A stretch of 59,397 nt of DNA. Source: Candidatus Roseilinea mizusawaensis. Its GTDB lineage: Bacteria; Chloroflexota; Anaerolineae; J036; Brachytrichaceae. The notes beneath the pieces were generated by a model, which was not told where the DNA came from, did no database searches, and saw nothing but the letters and a program-made list of their open reading frames with translations. The translations under genes were made by a program, and so were the position numbers. The DNA is taken from the NCBI GenBank assembly GCA_016841965.1, contig JAEANN010000025.1, positions 1 to 59,397 of the forward strand, read 5' to 3'. This document shows, piece after piece, positions 9,243-17,972 of the stretch. How positions within the stretch are numbered: position 1 is the stretch's first letter; each line of letters starts with the position of its first letter.

Positions 9243-9521
9243 ATGGACACCGAAGAGACACGCAAGGTCATCCGCCGGCTGCAAATCGCCGAGGGGCACG
9301 TGCGCGCCATTCAGCGCATGGTGGAGAACGGCGACTATTGCATCGACATTCTGAAACAGATCAGCGCCGTGCAGTCTGCGCTCGGCAAGGTGAGCCAGAT
9401 CATTCTGGAAAACCATCTCAACACCTGCGTGACCTCAGCCGTGCGCGGCGACGATCCAGCCGAGCGCGAGCGCGTGTTGCGCGAAATTGCCGATGTGTTT
9501 CGCAACACCCGCCAGGGATGA
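9243..9521 (+). CDS. CsoR/FrmR-family metal-sensing transcriptional repressor
   Basis: The 92-residue all-helical protein matches the usual length. It contains IRRLQIAEGHVRAIQRMVE and the ligand pattern Cys in DYCIDIL, then His and Cys in HLNTC. This Cys-His-Cys set is what Cu(I)-binding CsoR proteins use, whereas formaldehyde sensors (FrmR) lack it. Such repressors leave DNA when they bind metal. The start is uncertain: an in-frame ATG at 9198 lies 10 nt after the -10-like TACAAT at 9182-9187 and would add 15 residues, while the ATG at 9243 gives the usual length. It converges on a two-component operon whose kinase carries a His/acid-rich sensor stretch, which suggests the locus deals with a metal. 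Confidence 0.85.
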   Translation: MDTEETRKVIRRLQIAEGHVRAIQRMVENGDYCIDILKQISAVQSALGKVSQIILENHLNTCVTSAVRGDDPAERERVLREIADVFRNTRQG

Positions 9522-9536
9522 CTGCGGCGCCGGCCT

Positions 9537-10949
9537 TTACGCTTTGGGCAGCGAGATGGTCACGGTGAGGCCGCCGGCGGCCGGGCTATCCAGCCGCACA
9601 TGGCCGCCCATCGCCTCGATCAGCGTGCGCACGATGGATAACCCCAGGCCGGCGTGCGCTTTGTCACTCCGCGCCGCATCGACCTGATAAAACCGCTCGA
9701 ACACGCGCGGCAGATGCTCCGGCGCAATGCCCGGCCCGCTATCGCTGACAACAATGTCCACCCAACGCTCGCGCGATGCAACCAGCACAGCAATGCGCCC
9801 GCCGACCGGCGTGTAACGCAAGGCATTGTCCAGCACGGCCAGCAACACCTGACGCAGATACCCCTCATCTGCCTGCGCCACCGCCGTAGTGGGAGGCGCT
9901 TCAAACGTGACGCCGCGCCCGGCGCAGGCGCGCCGCCACTCGCCGGCCAGACTGTCCAGCACCCGCTGCAGAGGCACCGCTTCGATGTGAACGGGCAAGT
10001 GGCCGGCGTCGGCGCGCGAGAGCAGCAACAGATCGCTCACCAGCCGGGCCATGTGGCGCGATTCGCGCAACACATCGCCGGCCAGTTCCTGTCGCTCGTC
10101 GGGCGGTGTGTCGGGTCGGGTCGCCAGCTCGGCGCTGAGTTGAATCAGCGAGAGCGGCGCGCGCAACTCATGGCTGGCATTGGCCACAAACTCGCGCTGG
10201 CGCGCCCAGGCAGCCTGAACCGGCTGGATCGCGCGGCCGGCTGTGATCCAGCTCACCAGCGCAGCCAGGCCGGCCAGCGCTCCGCCGCCTGCCAGCAACC
10301 CAATCAGGAACTGGCGCATCACCCGGTCTTGTTCGATTAGCGAACGGCCGGCCTGAAGGTAGATCGTTTCATCCTCCTGGGGCAAGGCATAGGTGAGCAG
10401 GCGCACCGGTTCGCCGGCCGGCGTCTGCACCGTGCGCCAATCCGCGCCAGATCGGCCGGCCACAGCAATCGCTTCCAGATTGGGTGTGAAGCCGGGAGGC
10501 AGCATGACTGAAGGCACAAGCACGCGCCCCGCGCCATCCAGCCGCAGCACAAACACGCCGACCAGATCTTCAATCGGCGCGCCGGACGGCAGGGCAGATA
10601 CGCTGTTGGATGCGCGCTCGTGAGCGTCTTCCTCGCCATGTTTGTCGTCGTCTTCTCCTTCTTCATGTTCGGGTTTCTTGTCATCAGAAGACGACGCCGG
10701 CGCAGGAAGGCGCAAACGCACCCACTCCAAATAAGAGCGCTCCAGTTCAGCCGGCAACGGCGCGCCCAGTTGCAGATATTCGAGCGCCAGCCGGTTGCGC
10801 AGCGCATCATCGGTGGCGTTTTGAAAGTAGAAGCGCAACAACACAACGCTCAGCCCGGCCAGCAGGGCGATGAAACCCAGCACAGCAGCCAAATAAACGC
10901 CGGTCAGCCGCAGACGCAGCCGGTTGAGCAGTTGTTTCTCGGTCAGCAT
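9537..10949 (-). CDS. Sensor histidine kinase with a His/Asp/Glu-rich extracytoplasmic region
   Basis: The 470-residue protein has two membrane helices (about 17-40 and 213-237) flanking an external domain of about 170 residues. Residues 89-111 of that domain are almost all Asp, Glu, His and Lys (for example HEEGEDDDKHGEED), an obvious potential metal-binding stretch. The cytoplasmic part has the phospho-accepting His about 260 in ASHELRAPL, an N box LDNALRY, and G boxes DSGPGIAP and GLGLSIV. No separate HAMP domain is clear. Its start codon overlaps the stop of the response-regulator gene by 7 nt, so they are co-translated partners. A very similar charged stretch occurs at the end of the divergently encoded PepSY protein. 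Confidence 0.9.
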   Translation of the reverse strand: MLTEKQLLNRLRLRLTGVYLAAVLGFIALLAGLSVVLLRFYFQNATDDALRNRLALEYLQLGAPLPAELERSYLEWVRLRLPAPASSSDDKKPEHEEGEDDDKHGEEDAHERASNSVSALPSGAPIEDLVGVFVLRLDGAGRVLVPSVMLPPGFTPNLEAIAVAGRSGADWRTVQTPAGEPVRLLTYALPQEDETIYLQAGRSLIEQDRVMRQFLIGLLAGGGALAGLAALVSWITAGRAIQPVQAAWARQREFVANASHELRAPLSLIQLSAELATRPDTPPDERQELAGDVLRESRHMARLVSDLLLLSRADAGHLPVHIEAVPLQRVLDSLAGEWRRACAGRGVTFEAPPTTAVAQADEGYLRQVLLAVLDNALRYTPVGGRIAVLVASRERWVDIVVSDSGPGIAPEHLPRVFERFYQVDAARSDKAHAGLGLSIVRTLIEAMGGHVRLDSPAAGGLTVTISLPKA

Positions 10950-11623
10950 GAGATCAGACGGTACCCCACGCCGCGCACCGTTTCAATCGGGTCGGGCAGG
11001 CCGGCGGCTGTCTTTAACTTGCGGCGCAGATACGAAATGTAAATGTCCACCATCTTAAGTTGCGCGTCGCTGTCCATCGCCCACACGCGACTGAAGATTT
11101 GCTCGCGGCTGAGTGAGCGGTCACAATTGCGCATCAGATACTCCAGCAGCTCCCACTCCGTGAGGGTCAGGTCAATGGGTGCGTCGCCGCGATACACCCG
11201 CCGCTCGATCAGGTTCATGCGCAGATCGCCGCAGCGCAGCTCGGCCCCATCGGGACTGGCGATGTCATAGCGCCGGCTGAGCGCGCGCAGACGCGCCAGC
11301 AGCTCTTCGATGGCAAACGGCTTGACCAGGTAATCATCGGCCCCGCTGTCCAATCCCTGCACACGGTCTTCGACCTGTCCGCGCGCGGTGAGCATGAGAA
11401 TGGGCAGCGGCCGGCGCGCGCGACGCACCGCCAGACAAATCGCCGGCCCATCGCGTCCGGGCAACATCCAATCAACCACCGCCACATCGTATGCGCCGCC
11501 CAGCGCCATCTCCAGGCCGGTCTGCCCGTCATGGGCCAGGTCAACTGTGATGCCCTCCCGCTTCAGCGCGCGAGCAACCAATGTTGCGAGTTGTTGATCG
11601 TCTTCGATGATGAGCACGCGCAT
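10943..11623 (-). CDS. OmpR/PhoB-family response regulator
   Basis: The 226-residue protein has an N-terminal receiver with the acidic pair in IIEDD, phospho-acceptor Asp in VVDWMLPG, Thr in LTARG and Lys in VKPF, all intact. The C-terminal winged helix includes LTLTEWELLEYL and ends ETVRGVGYRL. The ATG at 11623 is the family-standard start MRVLIIEDD; a longer frame back to 11710 would run into the operator region. It is first in a two-gene operon with the sensor kinase. Divergent upstream DNA carries 11-bp-period direct repeats, the layout bound by this family, so it probably controls itself and the PepSY operon. Confidence 0.92.
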   Translation of the reverse strand: MRVLIIEDDQQLATLVARALKREGITVDLAHDGQTGLEMALGGAYDVAVVDWMLPGRDGPAICLAVRRARRPLPILMLTARGQVEDRVQGLDSGADDYLVKPFAIEELLARLRALSRRYDIASPDGAELRCGDLRMNLIERRVYRGDAPIDLTLTEWELLEYLMRNCDRSLSREQIFSRVWAMDSDAQLKMVDIYISYLRRKLKTAAGLPDPIETVRGVGYRLISC

Positions 11624-11655
11624 GTGAATTCGTCCCCGGCATTGTGGCCGGACAA

Positions 11656-11733
11656 AGGTTGGAAATGGGTAGAAAGCCGCTGAGCGTCTTATCAGGTCAA
11701 GTCTACCCAATTCCTACCCCGGCTGCGTACAGT
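11656..11733 (+). promoter_or_regulatory. Divergent control region with paired response-regulator boxes and a candidate promoter
   Basis: CTACCC occurs at 11703-11708 and again at 11714-11719, a period of exactly 11 bp. On the other strand CTACCC (GGGTAG at 11667-11672) is paired with a weaker copy (AGGTTG, 11656-11661), also at 11 bp. TACAGT at 11728-11733 is a possible -10 for the plus operon, which puts the first pair over its -35 position. CACAAT (minus, 11641-11646) is a possible -10 for the regulator gene, which puts the second pair over that -35. This is the arrangement PhoB-type activators use. Confidence 0.6.
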
Positions 11734-11779
11734 GGGCGCAACATCCTGTTCAACTTGTTCAAGAAAGGAGACCAAACAG

Positions 11780-12535
11780 ATGAACACAAAACCGATCAAT
11801 CAGCGCACGGCGCTGGTCATTGCCGGCGGCATGACAGCATTTACGCTGGTCGGGCTGGGCGCGCTGGCCGGGCAATTGAGCAACGCCACAAGCCAGGCCA
11901 CACCCACGCCGGCTGCCGCAACCGTCCCGCAAATAGTCGCACCCATCACCAATGCGCCGGCAGAGCAATCGGTCAACGCAGGGGCCGACAGCGCCCTCAG
12001 CGCGCGCGAAGCGCAGTATCAGGCGCTGATCCAGGAAGCCAACCGGCGCATCGAGGAAGCTAACCGCCGGCTGGCTCAGATGGAACAGCAACTGGCCGAG
12101 GCGCAGGCCGCGCCCCCCGCAGCGGTGAACATCATGGCAGAGGCACAACCTCAGGCGCCGGCTGCGCCTTCAGAAAGCGCAGCGCCCGGTGTAGCAATCT
12201 CCGCGCAGCGCGCGCTGGAAATCGCACAGGCCAGCGCCCCCGGCGCAGTCGCCCAGCGCCTGCCAGAGCTGGTGAACTTTCAGGGCGCGATCGCCTACGA
12301 AGTGGCGTTCAACACCGGCATGGTGTACGTGGACGCCAACAGCGGCGCCGTGCTCTACAACGGCGCGCTGATTCAACCGGCGGCCGCCCCAGCGTACTAC
12401 GACGATGACGACGAGCACGAGGAGCACGAGGAGCACGAGCGCGAAGAACGCGAATACAAGGAAAACCGGGAAGACAAGCACGACAAAGACGAAAAGGAGC
12501 ACGAGGAGCACGAGGAGAAAGGCCATGACGACTAA
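11780..12535 (+). CDS. Membrane-anchored or secreted PepSY-domain protein with a His/Asp/Glu-rich tail
   Basis: The 251-residue protein has one N-terminal hydrophobic segment (about 11-32), an Ala/Pro/Thr linker, and a coiled coil of about 72-110 with heptads such as EEANRRLAQMEQQLAEAQ. A single PepSY-like domain follows (about 139-195, with ISAQRALEIA and VYVDANSGAVLY). Residues 207-251 are nearly all Asp, Glu, His, Lys and Arg, including repeated HEE units, probably an unstructured metal-binding tail. AAAGGAG precedes the ATG at 11780. The gene is first in the operon divergent from the two-component genes and is followed by ApbE and ferric-reductase-like genes, suggesting a role at the cell surface in metal or redox handling (inference). 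Confidence 0.8.
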   Translation: MNTKPINQRTALVIAGGMTAFTLVGLGALAGQLSNATSQATPTPAAATVPQIVAPITNAPAEQSVNAGADSALSAREAQYQALIQEANRRIEEANRRLAQMEQQLAEAQAAPPAAVNIMAEAQPQAPAAPSESAAPGVAISAQRALEIAQASAPGAVAQRLPELVNFQGAIAYEVAFNTGMVYVDANSGAVLYNGALIQPAAAPAYYDDDDEHEEHEEHEREEREYKENREDKHDKDEKEHEEHEEKGHDD

Positions 12536-12929
12536 CGCCATGCGCCCCGCCAGCGCGAATCGCCATGCGCAACTTGAACAGGCCACTGCCTTGAAAGCAT
12601 TGATCGGCTCGGCATCGCTGGCGCTGACGCTGGCCGGCTGGGGCTGGTTCAGCCACCAACAGGCTGCGCAAACAGCGGCAGAACCAGCCGGCGCAGCAAC
12701 GCAGCAAAGCATCATCGTCGAGTCCGCTGCGCCGGCTGGTGGCGATCCTCTGCCCACGCTTGCGCCGCTATACACCCCCGGCCGTGTGGAAGCAGCTCGC
12801 CCGGCGCAAACCGCTCGCGCCGCGCAGGTGACAGGGCCTCAGGTTGCAGCGGCGCCACAACCACAGCCCCAACTGCGCGCGGTGACCGCCCCACCGCGAC
12901 CGGTCGCCGTCACACGCTCATCTCGCTGA
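12525..12929 (+). CDS. Small single-pass membrane protein of unknown function
   Basis: The 134-residue protein starts inside the end of the PepSY gene (11-nt overlap) with GGAGAAAGG just before its ATG, so coupled translation is likely. A hydrophobic helix at about residues 24-40 (LIGSASLALTLAGWGWF) is followed by an Ala/Pro/Gln-rich, apparently disordered external part that ends in a basic patch. No domain is recognised and it has no cysteines. It lies between the PepSY and ApbE genes and is probably part of the same membrane system. It lacks the Thr-containing FMN-attachment motif expected of an ApbE target. Confidence 0.65.
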   Translation: MTTNAMRPASANRHAQLEQATALKALIGSASLALTLAGWGWFSHQQAAQTAAEPAGAATQQSIIVESAAPAGGDPLPTLAPLYTPGRVEAARPAQTARAAQVTGPQVAAAPQPQPQLRAVTAPPRPVAVTRSSR

Positions 12930-12933
12930 GGCC

Positions 12934-13872
12934 ATGCAAGAGATCACCTTTCGCGCGATGGGCTGCCAGATGCTGGCCGCGCTGGATGCCGATACAGCCG
13001 AAGCAGGCGAGGCGTTGCGCAATGTGCCGGTGTGGTTTGAGATCTGGGAAAACAGTCTCAGCCGCTTCCGGCCCAGCAGCGAACTGAGCCGGCTGAATGC
13101 GCGCACAGGGGAATGGGTCGCGGTCAGCCAGACGCTGTGGGATGTGCTGCACGCGGCGCTGCGCGCGGCGCGCCACACCCACGGCCTGGTGATCCCCACC
13201 GCGCTCAGCGCCATGCAGGCCATCGGCTACACGCGCACGTTTGAAGAGATGTCGAGCGAACTGGTTGAGATCACGCTCACAGTCGCGCCGCCGGCCAACC
13301 TGGGAGACTGGGAGCGCATTCAGATGGATGCCGTCAATCGCGCGGTGTGGGCGCCGCCGGGAGCGCTGCTTGACCTGGGCGGCGTGGCCAAAGGCTGGTG
13401 CGCAGATCAGGCTGCGCGCCGGCTGGCCACATACGGGCCGGCGTTGGTGGATGCCGGCGGTGATATTGCCATCGCGCCGGCAGCCGACCGCGCTACCGAG
13501 TTCCCGATCGGGATTGCTGCGCCGGCCGGGGATTCGCCAACCCCCGACGCGCTGTTGGGCACGATCACCTTGCGCGCCGGCGGAGTAGCCACATCCGGAC
13601 GCGATTATCGGCGCTGGCGAATCGGCGGGCGCGAGGTGCATCATCTGATCGACCCGCGCACAAGCCAGCCGGCGCAGACCGACGTGCTGACCGCCACCAC
13701 CATCGCCCCCACTGCCGTGCAGGCCGAGGCCGTCGCCAAAGCCGCCTTGTTGCTGGGAAGCGAGGCAGGGCTGGCCTGGGCTGAATCTGAATACGACACG
13801 GCAACCTTGCTGGCCTGCGAAGATGGCCGCATCGTGCACACGCCAAACTTTCCGTTGTTGCAATCTGTTTGA
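12934..13872 (+). CDS. FAD:protein FMN transferase, ApbE family
   Basis: The 312-residue protein has the ApbE hallmarks: MGCQM at the N-terminus, SRFRPSSELSRLN, the FAD/metal-binding LDLGGVAKG (about residue 150), DAGGDI, and SGRDYRRW followed by HHLIDPRT. The family moves FMN from FAD onto a Thr or Ser of redox proteins, usually on the outer side of the membrane. No signal peptide or lipobox is visible, so this copy appears cytoplasmic unless it is exported in another way. It starts 4 nt after the small membrane-protein gene and precedes a haem membrane protein gene. The protein to be flavinylated is not encoded here. Confidence 0.88.
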   Translation: MQEITFRAMGCQMLAALDADTAEAGEALRNVPVWFEIWENSLSRFRPSSELSRLNARTGEWVAVSQTLWDVLHAALRAARHTHGLVIPTALSAMQAIGYTRTFEEMSSELVEITLTVAPPANLGDWERIQMDAVNRAVWAPPGALLDLGGVAKGWCADQAARRLATYGPALVDAGGDIAIAPAADRATEFPIGIAAPAGDSPTPDALLGTITLRAGGVATSGRDYRRWRIGGREVHHLIDPRTSQPAQTDVLTATTIAPTAVQAEAVAKAALLLGSEAGLAWAESEYDTATLLACEDGRIVHTPNFPLLQSV

Positions 13873-13912
13873 GAGACACACCCCCTTTCACGCACAAGCT
13901 CACGCACAAGCC

Positions 13913-14671
13913 ATGACACAATCTGTTGCACCACGCCCCGCGCCGGCGCGGGGTTCATCGCCGGCGCTCATGTCAGAAATTGATCTGGACGCGCGCTCGG
14001 ATACGCCGGTTGTCCTGCTGACGCTGTTGATCGCAGCGGCTGTCGGGGCGGCGCTGGCCGTTGTGCTGTTGCCGCAGTATCTGCCGGCGTTGGCGCAGTC
14101 GGCCGCCGGCGAATCGCCTAAAGCGTATTGGTTTCTGTCGCGCGCCAGCGGCTTTGTGGCGTTTGGCCTGCTCTGGCTTTCCACGGCCTTTGGGCTGCTG
14201 ATGACGGGCAAGCTGGCGCGCAACTGGCCGGGCCACCTGGTGGCCTTTGAGACGCATCAATTCATCAGCCTACTGGCGCTGGCCTTTGCGTTGTTTCACG
14301 CGCTGATTTTGTTGGGCGACCGCTACATCGGCTACACGCTGGAACAGGTGTTGACGCCGTTGGGCAGCCAGAGCTATCGGCCACTGGAGGTCGGACTCGG
14401 CCAGATCGGGTTTTATCTGGCTGCGCTGGTGACGTTCACCTTTTACGTGCGCCGGCTGATCTCGCAACGCGCGTGGCGCCTGATTCACTACCTCAGCTTT
14501 GCCGTGTTCGTGATGACGTTGTGGCACGGTCTGAGCAGCGGGACGGACAGCGGCGAGCGCTGGGCACAGGCGCTGTACTGGGGCGCCGGCGGCAGTGTGT
14601 TGTTTCTCACGCTCTATCGCATACTCAGCGCGCGGGTGAAGATCGAACCGGCCCAAAAGTCAGGGGCTTAG
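13913..14671 (+). CDS. Ferric-reductase-like transmembrane protein (b-type haem, YedZ/MsrQ-like)
   Basis: The protein of about 252 residues has around six membrane helices. Likely haem-ligand His residues occur as two pairs: one pair in FETHQF and LFHALI, the other in LIHYLSF and LWHGLS. This matches the ferric reductase-like membrane domain, which passes electrons through the membrane via two b haems. There is no NADPH/FAD-binding domain, as in MsrQ-type proteins, so a separate electron donor is needed. The start is uncertain: ATG 13913 leaves 40 nt after the ApbE gene, while ATG 13970 would remove a Pro/Arg-rich leader. It ends the operon and converges on another two-component system. Confidence 0.82.
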   Translation: MTQSVAPRPAPARGSSPALMSEIDLDARSDTPVVLLTLLIAAAVGAALAVVLLPQYLPALAQSAAGESPKAYWFLSRASGFVAFGLLWLSTAFGLLMTGKLARNWPGHLVAFETHQFISLLALAFALFHALILLGDRYIGYTLEQVLTPLGSQSYRPLEVGLGQIGFYLAALVTFTFYVRRLISQRAWRLIHYLSFAVFVMTLWHGLSSGTDSGERWAQALYWGAGGSVLFLTLYRILSARVKIEPAQKSGA

Positions 14672-14806: not shown

Positions 14807-16402
14807 TCAATCCATTTTCTTGAGGATAAGTTCAAACCGGCTGCCCTTGCCTGGCTCGCTGGTCACACTCACCCGGCCATTATGAGCCTGAACAATGCTC
14901 TTCACGATAGCCAGGCCCAGCCCACTGCCTTCGCCGCGCGCGTGACGACTACGATAGAAGCGATCAAAGATGCGCGGCAGATCATCGGGCGCGATACCCG
15001 GCCCTGTATCCTGCACCATAAAGGCTGCCACACCCTCACCGGCCTTTAGCACAACATCGACACGCCCACCTTCTGGCGTGAACTTCAGCCCGTTGTCAAT
15101 CAGATTGCTGAGGGCCATCTCGATGCGCGCCCGGTCGCAGCGCAGCTTAAGTGGCGCTTCCGGCGTGCTCAGGCTCAGCGTCAGGCCCTTTTCGGCGGCA
15201 ACCGGCTTGAAGGCAGCCACCACCGCCTGGGCAATCTCGCGCGCATCGTGATCGCCCCATTCCAATTGCGCCAAGCCGGCATCCAGGCGCGAGAGGTTCA
15301 ACAGATTGCTGGTGATCCACTCCAGTCGCTCGATTTGACGCTGGCTCTCGGCGAGGAACTCTGCGCGTGCGACGGCGTCTTCGGCGGCCGGCCCCTGCAT
15401 CAGTTCATTGAACGACTTGAGCGCCGTGATGGGTGTGCGCAGTTCGTGCGAGGCATCGGCCACAAAACGTCGCAGGGTATCACGCTCTGCCTCCAGCTCG
15501 GCAAAGCTGCGCTGAAGCTGGTCGGCCATGCGGTCGAATTGCGCGCCGAGCTGGCCGATCTCGTCGCGCGTTGTCACACCGGCGCGCGCGCTCAGGTCGC
15601 CCTTGCTCATGCGGTCGGCAGCGGCGGCAAGGGATTTGAGCGGGGAGGTCACACTTCGCCCAATGAATAGACCTGCCAGCCCGGCTACAAGCGTCGCGCC
15701 GGCCCCGGCGAATAGGAGCGCCCGCGCTGTGGTGTCAAGCGCCTCACTGCCAAAATCGGGCGGCTCACTCAGCTCCACGTAGCCGGCCGGCCGGCTGCGG
15801 TCGCCGATCGGCAAGCGCACGACAAGATTTGAGCGCCGCGTCTGCTCGCCCTGTTCCGGCTTCAACTTTTCCAACTCTGTGCGCGACAACAGCTCGATGA
15901 CAAAGCGGCTGCCCCATGCGTTTTCAACACGCCGAACGATCAGGAAATTGGCGCCGGCAGGCAGCTCGCCGACCGAAGACCACTCGACCGGCTGCGCGCG
16001 GCTCATCAACACCGACAGCACGATGGGGCGATTTGCATCGCCTGCCATCACTTCACCGGTTGGATCAGGCGGCAGAATCCAGACCATATCGTTTTCTGCA
16101 TCGTGCGGCCCGGAGTCAACCAGCACACGTTGGCGGGCATCCAAAATGCGCACCCGCACGTTGCCGGCAAATGCTGATGTGTGCGCCAGTTGGCGCAATG
16201 CATAGGTGTTGGCGCGTGCGCCCATCAATGCCTCGGCCTGGCGCGCGACAGCCTGGGCATTGGCGGTCAGGTAATTAACCTCCTGCTGCTCGATGTGCCG
16301 TTGAATCAGCGACAACGCCAGGGCAGCCACTAGCCCAACGGCCAACACCGTCAGCAGCATGTAGCTGGCAACCAGACGCCAGCGAATCGATCGCACATCC
16401 AT
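14807..16402 (-). CDS. Sensor histidine kinase with HAMP domain (second two-component system)
   Basis: The 531-residue protein has a first membrane helix at about 11-35 and a large external domain of about 190 residues. A second helix (ALLFAGAGATLVAGLAGLF) leads into a HAMP domain (SPLKSLAAAADRMSKGDLSAR). The kinase core shows the phospho-accepting His in ASHELRTPI, N box LSNLIDNGLKFTP, and G boxes DTGPGIAPDDLP and GLGLAIVKSI. The start at 16402 (MDVRSIRWRL) places the first helix correctly. Its partner regulator gene lies upstream, separated by a gene for a secreted PDZ protein; all three face left and probably form one operon. Confidence 0.9.
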   Translation of the reverse strand: MDVRSIRWRLVASYMLLTVLAVGLVAALALSLIQRHIEQQEVNYLTANAQAVARQAEALMGARANTYALRQLAHTSAFAGNVRVRILDARQRVLVDSGPHDAENDMVWILPPDPTGEVMAGDANRPIVLSVLMSRAQPVEWSSVGELPAGANFLIVRRVENAWGSRFVIELLSRTELEKLKPEQGEQTRRSNLVVRLPIGDRSRPAGYVELSEPPDFGSEALDTTARALLFAGAGATLVAGLAGLFIGRSVTSPLKSLAAAADRMSKGDLSARAGVTTRDEIGQLGAQFDRMADQLQRSFAELEAERDTLRRFVADASHELRTPITALKSFNELMQGPAAEDAVARAEFLAESQRQIERLEWITSNLLNLSRLDAGLAQLEWGDHDAREIAQAVVAAFKPVAAEKGLTLSLSTPEAPLKLRCDRARIEMALSNLIDNGLKFTPEGGRVDVVLKAGEGVAAFMVQDTGPGIAPDDLPRIFDRFYRSRHARGEGSGLGLAIVKSIVQAHNGRVSVTSEPGKGSRFELILKKMD

Positions 16403-16428
16403 TTTGAAAACCCTGTTGCGAGAAAATC

Positions 16429-16456
16429 GCCCTCTCCCCATTGGCGGGGAGAGGGC
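16429..16456. terminator. Strong hairpin between the PDZ-protein and kinase genes
   Basis: An 11-bp perfect stem (GCCCTCTCCCC with GGGGAGAGGGC) closes a 6-nt loop. No T run follows on either strand. It may act as an mRNA-stabilising or partial termination element that lowers kinase expression, or it may be a member of a widespread palindromic repeat family. Confidence 0.5.
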
Positions 16457-16503
16457 ATCCTGAGGGGGAGAGCATGGATGCAATTATCTTGTTTGAGAAC
16501 GGC

Positions 16504-17793
16504 CTACAAACTCTCGCCAAGCGGCGGTCGCTGTTCGGCCGGCCACTGCGGCAGATTATCGAACAAGCCGGGCAGCATCTTAAAAAGATCATCGGGCAAC
16601 GTCCAGCCACTCTGATCGTCTTCGCTGGCCGGCGCAACACGTGGCCGGGCGGCCAGCGAGACGCCCAGATATGCCGCACCCTTCTTGTCGGGATGTTCGC
16701 CCAGAATTGCAGATACCTTGAGCGTCTCGTTGCTGCGGCTCACTTCGAGCGTGATCGTGTCGCCAGGCTTGCGCCGGCCGATCGCATTCACCAGCTCGCG
16801 CGGATCATCCATGTCGGCGCCGTCCAGGCTGAGGATGACATCATCCACCTTCAGGCCGGCGGCGGCTGCGGGGCTGCCGGTCACGACACTGCGCACCACA
16901 ATCTCGGTCGATACCGGCGCGCGCGGCAGGCGGGGCATTTTCGGCAGGACACGCCAGCTCCACATCGGCCCGGCGAACGTGTATTGCACACCCAGATACG
17001 CTTTGCTCGCGTCAGCGGGGTTCGCGCCCAGTGTGACCGTCACGGCGCGACGTTGCTGATTCTGCCCAAGCACCTCCAGCGTCACGCGCTCGCCGGGCTT
17101 GTATTGACCGATCAGGGCAGCCAGCGTGTTGGACATATCGACGGTTACGCCATTGACGGCGCTGATCACGTCGCCGGCCACCAGCCCGGCCTTAGCAGCC
17201 GGCGTGTCGGTCAACACCTCGACGATCATCGCGCCGGGGCCAACCTGCGCACCGGTCACAATCTTGCGCATCTCGATGCCGGGCTTGATTTGCCAGCGCG
17301 GTGCGCCGGGCAGCAGCTTGTCGAAACCGTCGGCGTCGTCAGCCAGTGATAGGCCCAGATAAGCCCGGCCATCCTGGTCGCCCAATGTCACCCTAAAGGC
17401 GCGTGTTTCGTCGCCGCGCAGCACTGAGACACTCACTGCATCGCCGGGCTTTCGATCAGCCAGGAAGGCTGCCACATCCGACACCGTATTCACTTCTGTG
17501 TCGGCGAGCTTGACGACGATGTCACCCCGGCGCAGGCCGGCGCGCGCCGCCGGGCCATCGGCCTCGACACGAACAATCAACACGCCCTTCTCATTGCTAT
17601 CACGCTGACTCAACACCGCTGCCTGCGCCGCTGCCTGCGCCGCTGCCTGCGCCGCTGCCGGCGCCGCTGCCGGCGCCGCTGTCTGCGCCGCTGCCTGCGC
17701 GACAGTCGCGCCAGACACAATGATGCCGACAATCGCCAGAGCCAGCGCCGCCGCACTTGCAAGGGCAATCGCTACTATTCGCTTCGTTTTCAT
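16504..17793 (-). CDS. Secreted or membrane-anchored protein with three PDZ domains
   Basis: The 429-residue protein begins with MKTKR and a hydrophobic signal/anchor (about 5-30), then an Ala/Gln-rich linker encoded by seven 12-bp repeats. Three PDZ domains follow, each with a GLxxGDxI-type peptide-binding core: GLRRGDIVVKL, GLVAGDVISAV and GLKVDDVILSL. There is no trypsin-like Ser-protease domain, so it is not a complete DegP/HtrA protein. It may bind exposed C-termini of envelope proteins and inform the adjacent kinase (inference from position between regulator and kinase). GGAGG lies 12 nt before the ATG at 17793. Confidence 0.82.
   Translation of the reverse strand: MKTKRIVAIALASAAALALAIVGIIVSGATVAQAAAQTAAPAAAPAAAQAAAQAAAQAAVLSQRDSNEKGVLIVRVEADGPAARAGLRRGDIVVKLADTEVNTVSDVAAFLADRKPGDAVSVSVLRGDETRAFRVTLGDQDGRAYLGLSLADDADGFDKLLPGAPRWQIKPGIEMRKIVTGAQVGPGAMIVEVLTDTPAAKAGLVAGDVISAVNGVTVDMSNTLAALIGQYKPGERVTLEVLGQNQQRRAVTVTLGANPADASKAYLGVQYTFAGPMWSWRVLPKMPRLPRAPVSTEIVVRSVVTGSPAAAAGLKVDDVILSLDGADMDDPRELVNAIGRRKPGDTITLEVSRSNETLKVSAILGEHPDKKGAAYLGVSLAARPRVAPASEDDQSGWTLPDDLFKMLPGLFDNLPQWPAEQRPPLGESL
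17616..17699. repeat. 12-bp tandem repeat, seven copies, coding for an Ala/Gln linker
   Basis: The unit CCGCTGCCTGCG is repeated seven times, with one or two changes in three copies. It lies in frame inside the PDZ-protein gene, just after the signal segment, and encodes AQAA/APAA units. Copy changes would keep the frame. Confidence 0.9.
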
Positions 17794-17972
17794 ATCTTGT
17801 TTCAACCTCCGCATTCTCGACATAGGCCGATCAGGCGCTATGGTTGAACATGATGGTATAGAAAGCAGATTGCGCGAGGATTACGGCGCGCTTAAGACTT
17901 CGCAACATTCCCCATCCTGCCGCCAGGCCGGCCTCGCCGCAGACGGGACAGACGGGACAAACAACGCGCTCG

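Follow-up and report, generated by a model that had tools for sequence, protein, structure and literature searches.

A short C-terminal tail as candidate flavin acceptor in a conserved ApbE-haem protein operon of Candidatus Roseilinea mizusawaensis and other bacteria

The flavin transferase ApbE flavinylates the last residue of the motif D-x-x-[ST]-G-A-[ST] (PMC12052999, PMC11334425), and its known acceptor families (FMN_bind, NqrB/RnfD, DUF2271, DUF3570, Flavodoxin_4 and FMN_red; PMC8238504, PMC11334425, PMC12052999) carry the acceptor Ser or Thr at the end of a four-residue [ST]-x-x-[ST] and are encoded beside apbE. In MsrQ-like systems (Meheust et al. 2021, PMC8238504) apbE adjoins the gene of a PF01794-type haem membrane protein of the ferric reductase kind, an FMN_bind acceptor gene is typical, an NAD-binding domain on the haem protein is common and not universal, and electrons are proposed to flow from the membrane or cytosol to a flavoprotein outside; in PepSY-like systems (PF03929/PF16357, PMC8238504) ApbE is accompanied by a three-helix haem protein. 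The same survey left orphan apbE genes in 4% of its genomes (670), concluded that there are still unidentified substrates, and retained only ApbE or FMN_bind proteins with signal peptides, so that loci with a cytosolic ApbE of the type described here would have been passed over. The nearest precedents for an acceptor at a protein end are FMN_red proteins with motifs on a C-terminal extension (PMC11334425) and the engineered flavin tag, in which ApbE flavinylates a short terminal peptide (PMC12052999). Here an apbE-containing gene block (9243-14671) was analysed in contig JAEANN010000025.1 of Candidatus Roseilinea mizusawaensis (positions 1 to 59,397, forward strand; the whole 59,397-nucleotide stretch is referred to as the window).

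Genes for a membrane-anchored coiled-coil/PepSY protein (11780-12535), a small single-pass membrane protein (12525-12929, alternative start 12540), ApbE (12934-13872) and a multi-helix haem protein of the ferric reductase/STEAP/NOX superfamily (approximately 13913-14671) follow one another in the same direction on the + strand, and neighbours overlap or stand apart by anything from a few bases to about 40. As in MsrQ-like systems, apbE is clustered with a ferric-reductase-type gene (Ferric_reduct 23.9 bits, below the cut-off of 28); unlike them, the block has no FMN_bind acceptor gene, the haem protein has no NAD-binding domain, ApbE has no signal peptide and the small protein occupies the acceptor slot. 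PepSY-like systems share with it the word PepSY and the ApbE gene, whereas here PepSY means the small extracytoplasmic domain PF03413 (E 1.3e-4, narrowly missing the Pfam cut-off) in a protein that crosses the membrane once, and a three-helix PF03929/PF16357 protein is absent. We consider it probable that the operon serves trans-membrane electron transfer with the flavin (flavin mononucleotide, FMN) carried on a short C-terminal tail of the small protein rather than on an FMN_bind domain. With the same good but incomplete confidence, this tail would stand for a widespread, undescribed class of ApbE acceptor, namely a flavin tag of natural origin, four to five residues long and placed at the C-terminus, that has no folded flavin-binding domain, is held on a disordered membrane tether, is served by its own ApbE group and occurs at least in Chloroflexota, Bacillota and Actinomycetota.

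The small protein of the window (134 amino acids) consists of an N-terminal helix, a Pro-rich linker with PLPTLAPL and the C-terminal tail Thr-Arg-Ser-Ser-Arg (12912-12926), in which the penultimate Ser133 (codon 12921-12923) is the proposed FMN-bearing residue. In relatives, a protein of this build (one N-terminal membrane helix, a disordered and often Pro-rich linker, a C-terminal [ST]-x-[SGTA]-[ST] followed by up to two residues) is almost always encoded directly upstream of ApbE; no family was found for these proteins in Pfam or NCBIfam, where only sub-threshold matches at chance level were returned. When 18 diverse members are aligned, only two columns are the same in every row, and Ser133 occupies one of them. 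For counting, the neighbouring open reading frame (ORF) with a membrane helix was picked blind to its C-terminus, its end being required to lie −150 to +60 nucleotides from the ApbE start; such an ORF abuts 100 of 127 distinct related ApbEs. Endings of the form [ST]xx[ST] with zero to two further residues were found in 95 of these 100 ORFs and in 25 of 468 other proteins from the same loci, and with the stricter [ST]-x-[STAG]-[ST] and at most two trailing residues the counts were 84/100 and 4/468. A profile of the small protein matched 39 of 149 genomes at E ≤ 1e-3, and 38 of the 39 carry a tail-type ApbE, compared with 52 of 149 overall; in the remaining one (G146) the locus lies at a contig end. 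At L257 (4726-5853) a tail protein ending in RTSGS is encoded directly beside the haem protein with no ApbE within the fetched 11 kb, an arrangement that links the tail directly with the haem protein and suggests that ApbE acts in trans there. Second tail proteins were seen near the same operon in three loci (L030:7334-7801 and L031:10207-10677, both TTRSSR; L072:9109-9606, QTRSSK).

Among 116 tails picked by script, a few of them mis-picks, the fourth position is occupied by Ser in 106 cases and by Thr in 10. Variants include TRSSR, SRSSR, TRTS, TRGS, TKAS, THSSK, TGSSK, TGGS and SGGS; Bacillota have TGGT preceded by Asp (Neobacillus, L224), TGAS and TGRS (Paenibacillus, L237 and L244) and SHAS (Alicyclobacillus, L233), and an actinobacterium has SGAS (L230), its gene lying downstream of ApbE. 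Relatives with SGAS, TGAS or TGGT hold them at the identical terminal position, and on this comparison of motifs the tails grade into the known ApbE site [ST]GA[ST].

ApbE is the only copy in its genome and begins at the conserved FRAMG strand. Sequence (PF02424, E 1.5e-50) and predicted fold (AlphaFold model with a mean predicted local distance difference test score, pLDDT, of 90.5; solved ApbEs at a template modelling score of ~0.8) establish it as a member of the family. Ser221 and His237 are conserved, and the Asp of the reported triad is replaced by Glu265. A tree of 53 ApbEs has a branch (support 98) that separates the set encoded beside FMN_bind proteins from the set encoded beside tails, and those of Bacillota and Actinomycetota are on the tail side; tail-side members score >120 bits to the window ApbE and FMN_bind-side members 31-80 bits. 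The two sets also differ at the presumed metal site, where FMN_bind-side ApbEs have Thr as a presumed Mg2+ ligand and most tail-side ApbEs have Lys, with Glu or Asp four residues earlier (Lys gives way to Thr, Leu or Arg in some of them); in the window, Glu265 and Lys269 (13726-13740) stand where the FMN_bind-linked enzymes have Asp and Thr. A sensor kinase-ApbE fusion is encoded at L094 (5282-7783; HAMP-HisKA-HATPase_c-ApbE by Pfam) beside a response regulator, and similar kinases with a C-terminal ApbE were deduced from ORF length at L102, L103 and L141; the fusions belong to the tail-side group, and no tail protein was found for them.

Known acceptors were searched for in the window genome, which is 99% complete. 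The preliminary description had already noted the lack of an FMN_bind protein in the block, and genome-wide none scored above the cut-off (best E 0.42); NqrB/RnfD, DUF2271 and DUF3570 were likewise absent, Flavodoxin_4 and FMN_red not having been searched. Of 15 further genomes to which named loci led, 13 likewise lack FMN_bind; two are complete chromosomes. The genomes of Herpetosiphon aurantiacus, Alicyclobacillus kakegawensis, Paenibacillus, Cohnella and Brevibacillus have one ApbE and no FMN_bind, DUF2271 or DUF3570; NqrB/RnfD is absent from most of these other genomes, although H. aurantiacus and P. tyrfis gave weak matches. Where FMN_bind proteins do occur (13 of 149 genomes), they stand beside other, divergent ApbEs. 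Alignments of the haem and PepSY-type proteins revealed no conserved acceptor-like Ser or Thr, and flavinylation of either was rejected, the former having no invariant Ser/Thr and the latter reading [ST]GA[VIL]. The full PepSY sequence at 12320-12370 and in orthologues, D-A-N-[ST]-G-A-[VIL], resembles the flavinylation motif with the acceptor hydroxyl missing, which is probably coincidence. The small membrane protein, which the preliminary description had left unnamed, is the key part of the block, its conserved tail being the likely missing acceptor, and for this reason there is probably no need for the proposed hunt through the rest of the genome for a flavinylated protein.

Four His residues are invariant across 29 haem proteins (His115, His129, His192 and His205, numbered from 13913) and form two pairs with a spacing of 13-14 residues, as expected for two bis-His haems. 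No convincing relative of solved structure was found by sequence; by fold, the model (pLDDT 85.9) is closest to the membrane domains of a bacterial NADPH oxidase and STEAP (probability 1.0), with weak E-values of ~0.1, and together with the sequence the model assigns the protein a STEAP/NOX-like fold. Neither an NAD(P)H nor a flavin domain was detected by Pfam scan or alignment.

The gene order recurs in dozens of genomes, and the arrangement therefore exceeds chance. A same-class ApbE is present in 52 of 149 relative genomes; nearly all fetched loci have the haem protein beside ApbE, most have a two-component system nearby and most encode a protein with an acidic, His-containing C-terminus. 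The conserved unit comprises a two-component system, an acidic/His-tail protein (often PepSY), the small protein with its membrane helix, an ApbE that has no signal peptide and a bis-His haem protein, and it ranges across Chloroflexota and into Bacillota and Actinomycetota. All seven genes of the preliminary description were found where it had placed them, and its view of a conserved block with ApbE and a haem protein and without an FMN_bind acceptor is borne out: gene order is retained among relatives, and the charged stretches persist in orthologous kinases and PepSY-type proteins alike. The PepSY domain of the acidic/His-tail protein is optional, being replaced in tail-keeping proteins by coiled coils (L095, L097, L104) or other domains (L084, L086). 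In one family, at L073 (1837-3078) and at the same position in L074-L076, a gene for a protein of ~410 amino acids, with an adenylate/guanylate cyclase domain in L073, lies between ApbE and the haem protein.

In the proposed mechanism, ApbE would transfer FMN from flavin adenine dinucleotide (FAD) onto the penultimate Ser of the small protein's tail (TRS-S*-R). The N-terminal helix is predicted to anchor this protein and the disordered Pro-rich tether to reach outward, where the bis-His haem protein would hand electrons to the tethered FMN outside the membrane. Menaquinol is the likeliest electron donor, because the haem protein has no NAD(P)H domain. The acidic/His-tail partner may bind the final acceptor, for which Fe(III) or Cu(II) would be the simplest candidates, so that, speculatively, the metal held by this tail would be reduced. 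The two-component system, whose sensor has a similar charged stretch, would control the divergent operon through a conserved inverted site.

Several points weigh against this reading. Its main weakness is topology: in 40 of 42 small proteins the positive charges lie mainly on the N-terminal side of the helix, which predicts N-in/C-out orientation with the tail outside, and ApbE, having no signal peptide, is cytosolic; modification must then precede translocation, or the topology differs from prediction. Cytosolic ApbEs exist and flavin tags work best at protein termini (PMC12052999); modification of the disordered tail before insertion would solve the problem and might be the reason for dispensing with a folded domain. 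The second weakness is the core of the motif. The tails supply Ser/Thr at positions 1 and 4, but in the window and most Chloroflexota Arg-Ser takes the place of Gly-Ala and the Asp three residues upstream is absent; Gly occupies position 2 in 15 of 116 script-picked tails, exact TGAS or SGAS is confined to a few relatives, and in a known system Gly to Ala at the flavinylation site roughly halves flavinylation (PMC12052999). Furthermore, the tail loci were collected by similarity to the window ApbE, the p-values of the enrichment tests ignore relatedness, and no tail was found near a minority of related ApbEs (L094, L102, L103, L141, L101, L105, L218, L222 and a few others).

Among other explanations, the one put forward in the preliminary description, a Cu/Fe homeostasis unit with CsoR and the two-component system as metal sensors, and with the PepSY tail, ApbE and haem protein as the parts that reduce or bind the metal, is possible though doubtful. 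The sensor histidine kinase (9537-10949, − strand) has a charged, His-containing extracytoplasmic stretch (residues 89-112, DDKKPEHEEGEDDDKHGEEDAHER; 10614-10685) that recurs in orthologous kinases, as does the 46-residue Asp/Glu/His tail of the PepSY protein (12395-12532) in PepSY-type orthologues; the haem protein has the ferric reductase/STEAP/NOX fold, and CsoR has Cys33-His58-Cys62, the Cu(I)-type ligand pattern. Metal sensing by the block is plausible. Set against this, His is sparse in the tails, which consist mostly of Asp/Glu, many loci have something else in place of PepSY, and the block has no metal transporter gene. The CsoR-type repressor (9243-9521, + strand; Pfam match E 5.5e-27) is convergent with the kinase and is otherwise linked to the unit only in the fetched stretches of L027 and L028; it was dropped as a unit member since the link is not conserved among fetched loci, and is probably a bystander. 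Metal homeostasis is compatible with tail flavinylation, because it concerns what the system reduces.

It is rather unlikely that the tail protein serves, as an adaptor or anchor, to dock ApbE or the haem protein, while FMN is really accepted by some other member of the unit or by an unrecognised protein. The departure of most Chloroflexota tails from the canonical motif and the few related ApbEs without a tail protein nearby would fit such a role, but the haem proteins and the PepSY [ST]GA[VIL] offer no suitable hydroxyl, the known acceptor families searched are absent, and exact SGAS, TGAS or TGGT stands at the same terminal position in some relatives. An ordinary MsrQ-like flavinylation system, suggested by the pairing of apbE with a PF01794-like gene that defines such clusters (PMC8238504), is very improbable, as the FMN_bind protein it places elsewhere in the genome was found neither in the window genome nor in 13 of the 15 others, and genomes with both have a separate, divergent ApbE for FMN_bind.

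Flavinylation of the C-terminal tail, as deduced from these sequence patterns, would differ from that of known acceptors in that no folded domain is involved and the motif lies at the extreme C-terminus, often followed by Arg or Lys, with Gly-Ala mostly replaced by Arg-Ser; from the engineered tag it would differ in being natural and in its consensus. In the papers found on tail acceptors, Chloroflexota flavinylation and orphan substrates, no acceptor is described that consists of a terminal tail on a membrane protein devoid of domains, and if confirmed the acceptor class itself would be new. If the tail is flavinylated, orphan apbE genes gain a substrate class, covalent flavin electron carriers need no folded domain, and the recognised motif is widened, with orthogonal ApbE/tag pairs for protein labelling. 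Herpetosiphon aurantiacus DSM 785, which is in culture and has a complete genome, also has the system (L196, tail NTRSSR).

The OmpR/PhoB-type response regulator (10943-11623, − strand) is divergent from the PepSY-ApbE-haem operon. The space between the genes for the regulator and PepSY contains an inverted repeat with arms at 11657-11673 and 11702-11718, an operator-like site whose sequence is conserved in relatives and which is likely the response-regulator site. Directly downstream of the operon and convergent with it, another sensor kinase, of the HAMP type, and a protein with three PDZ domains are encoded at 14807-17823 on the − strand.

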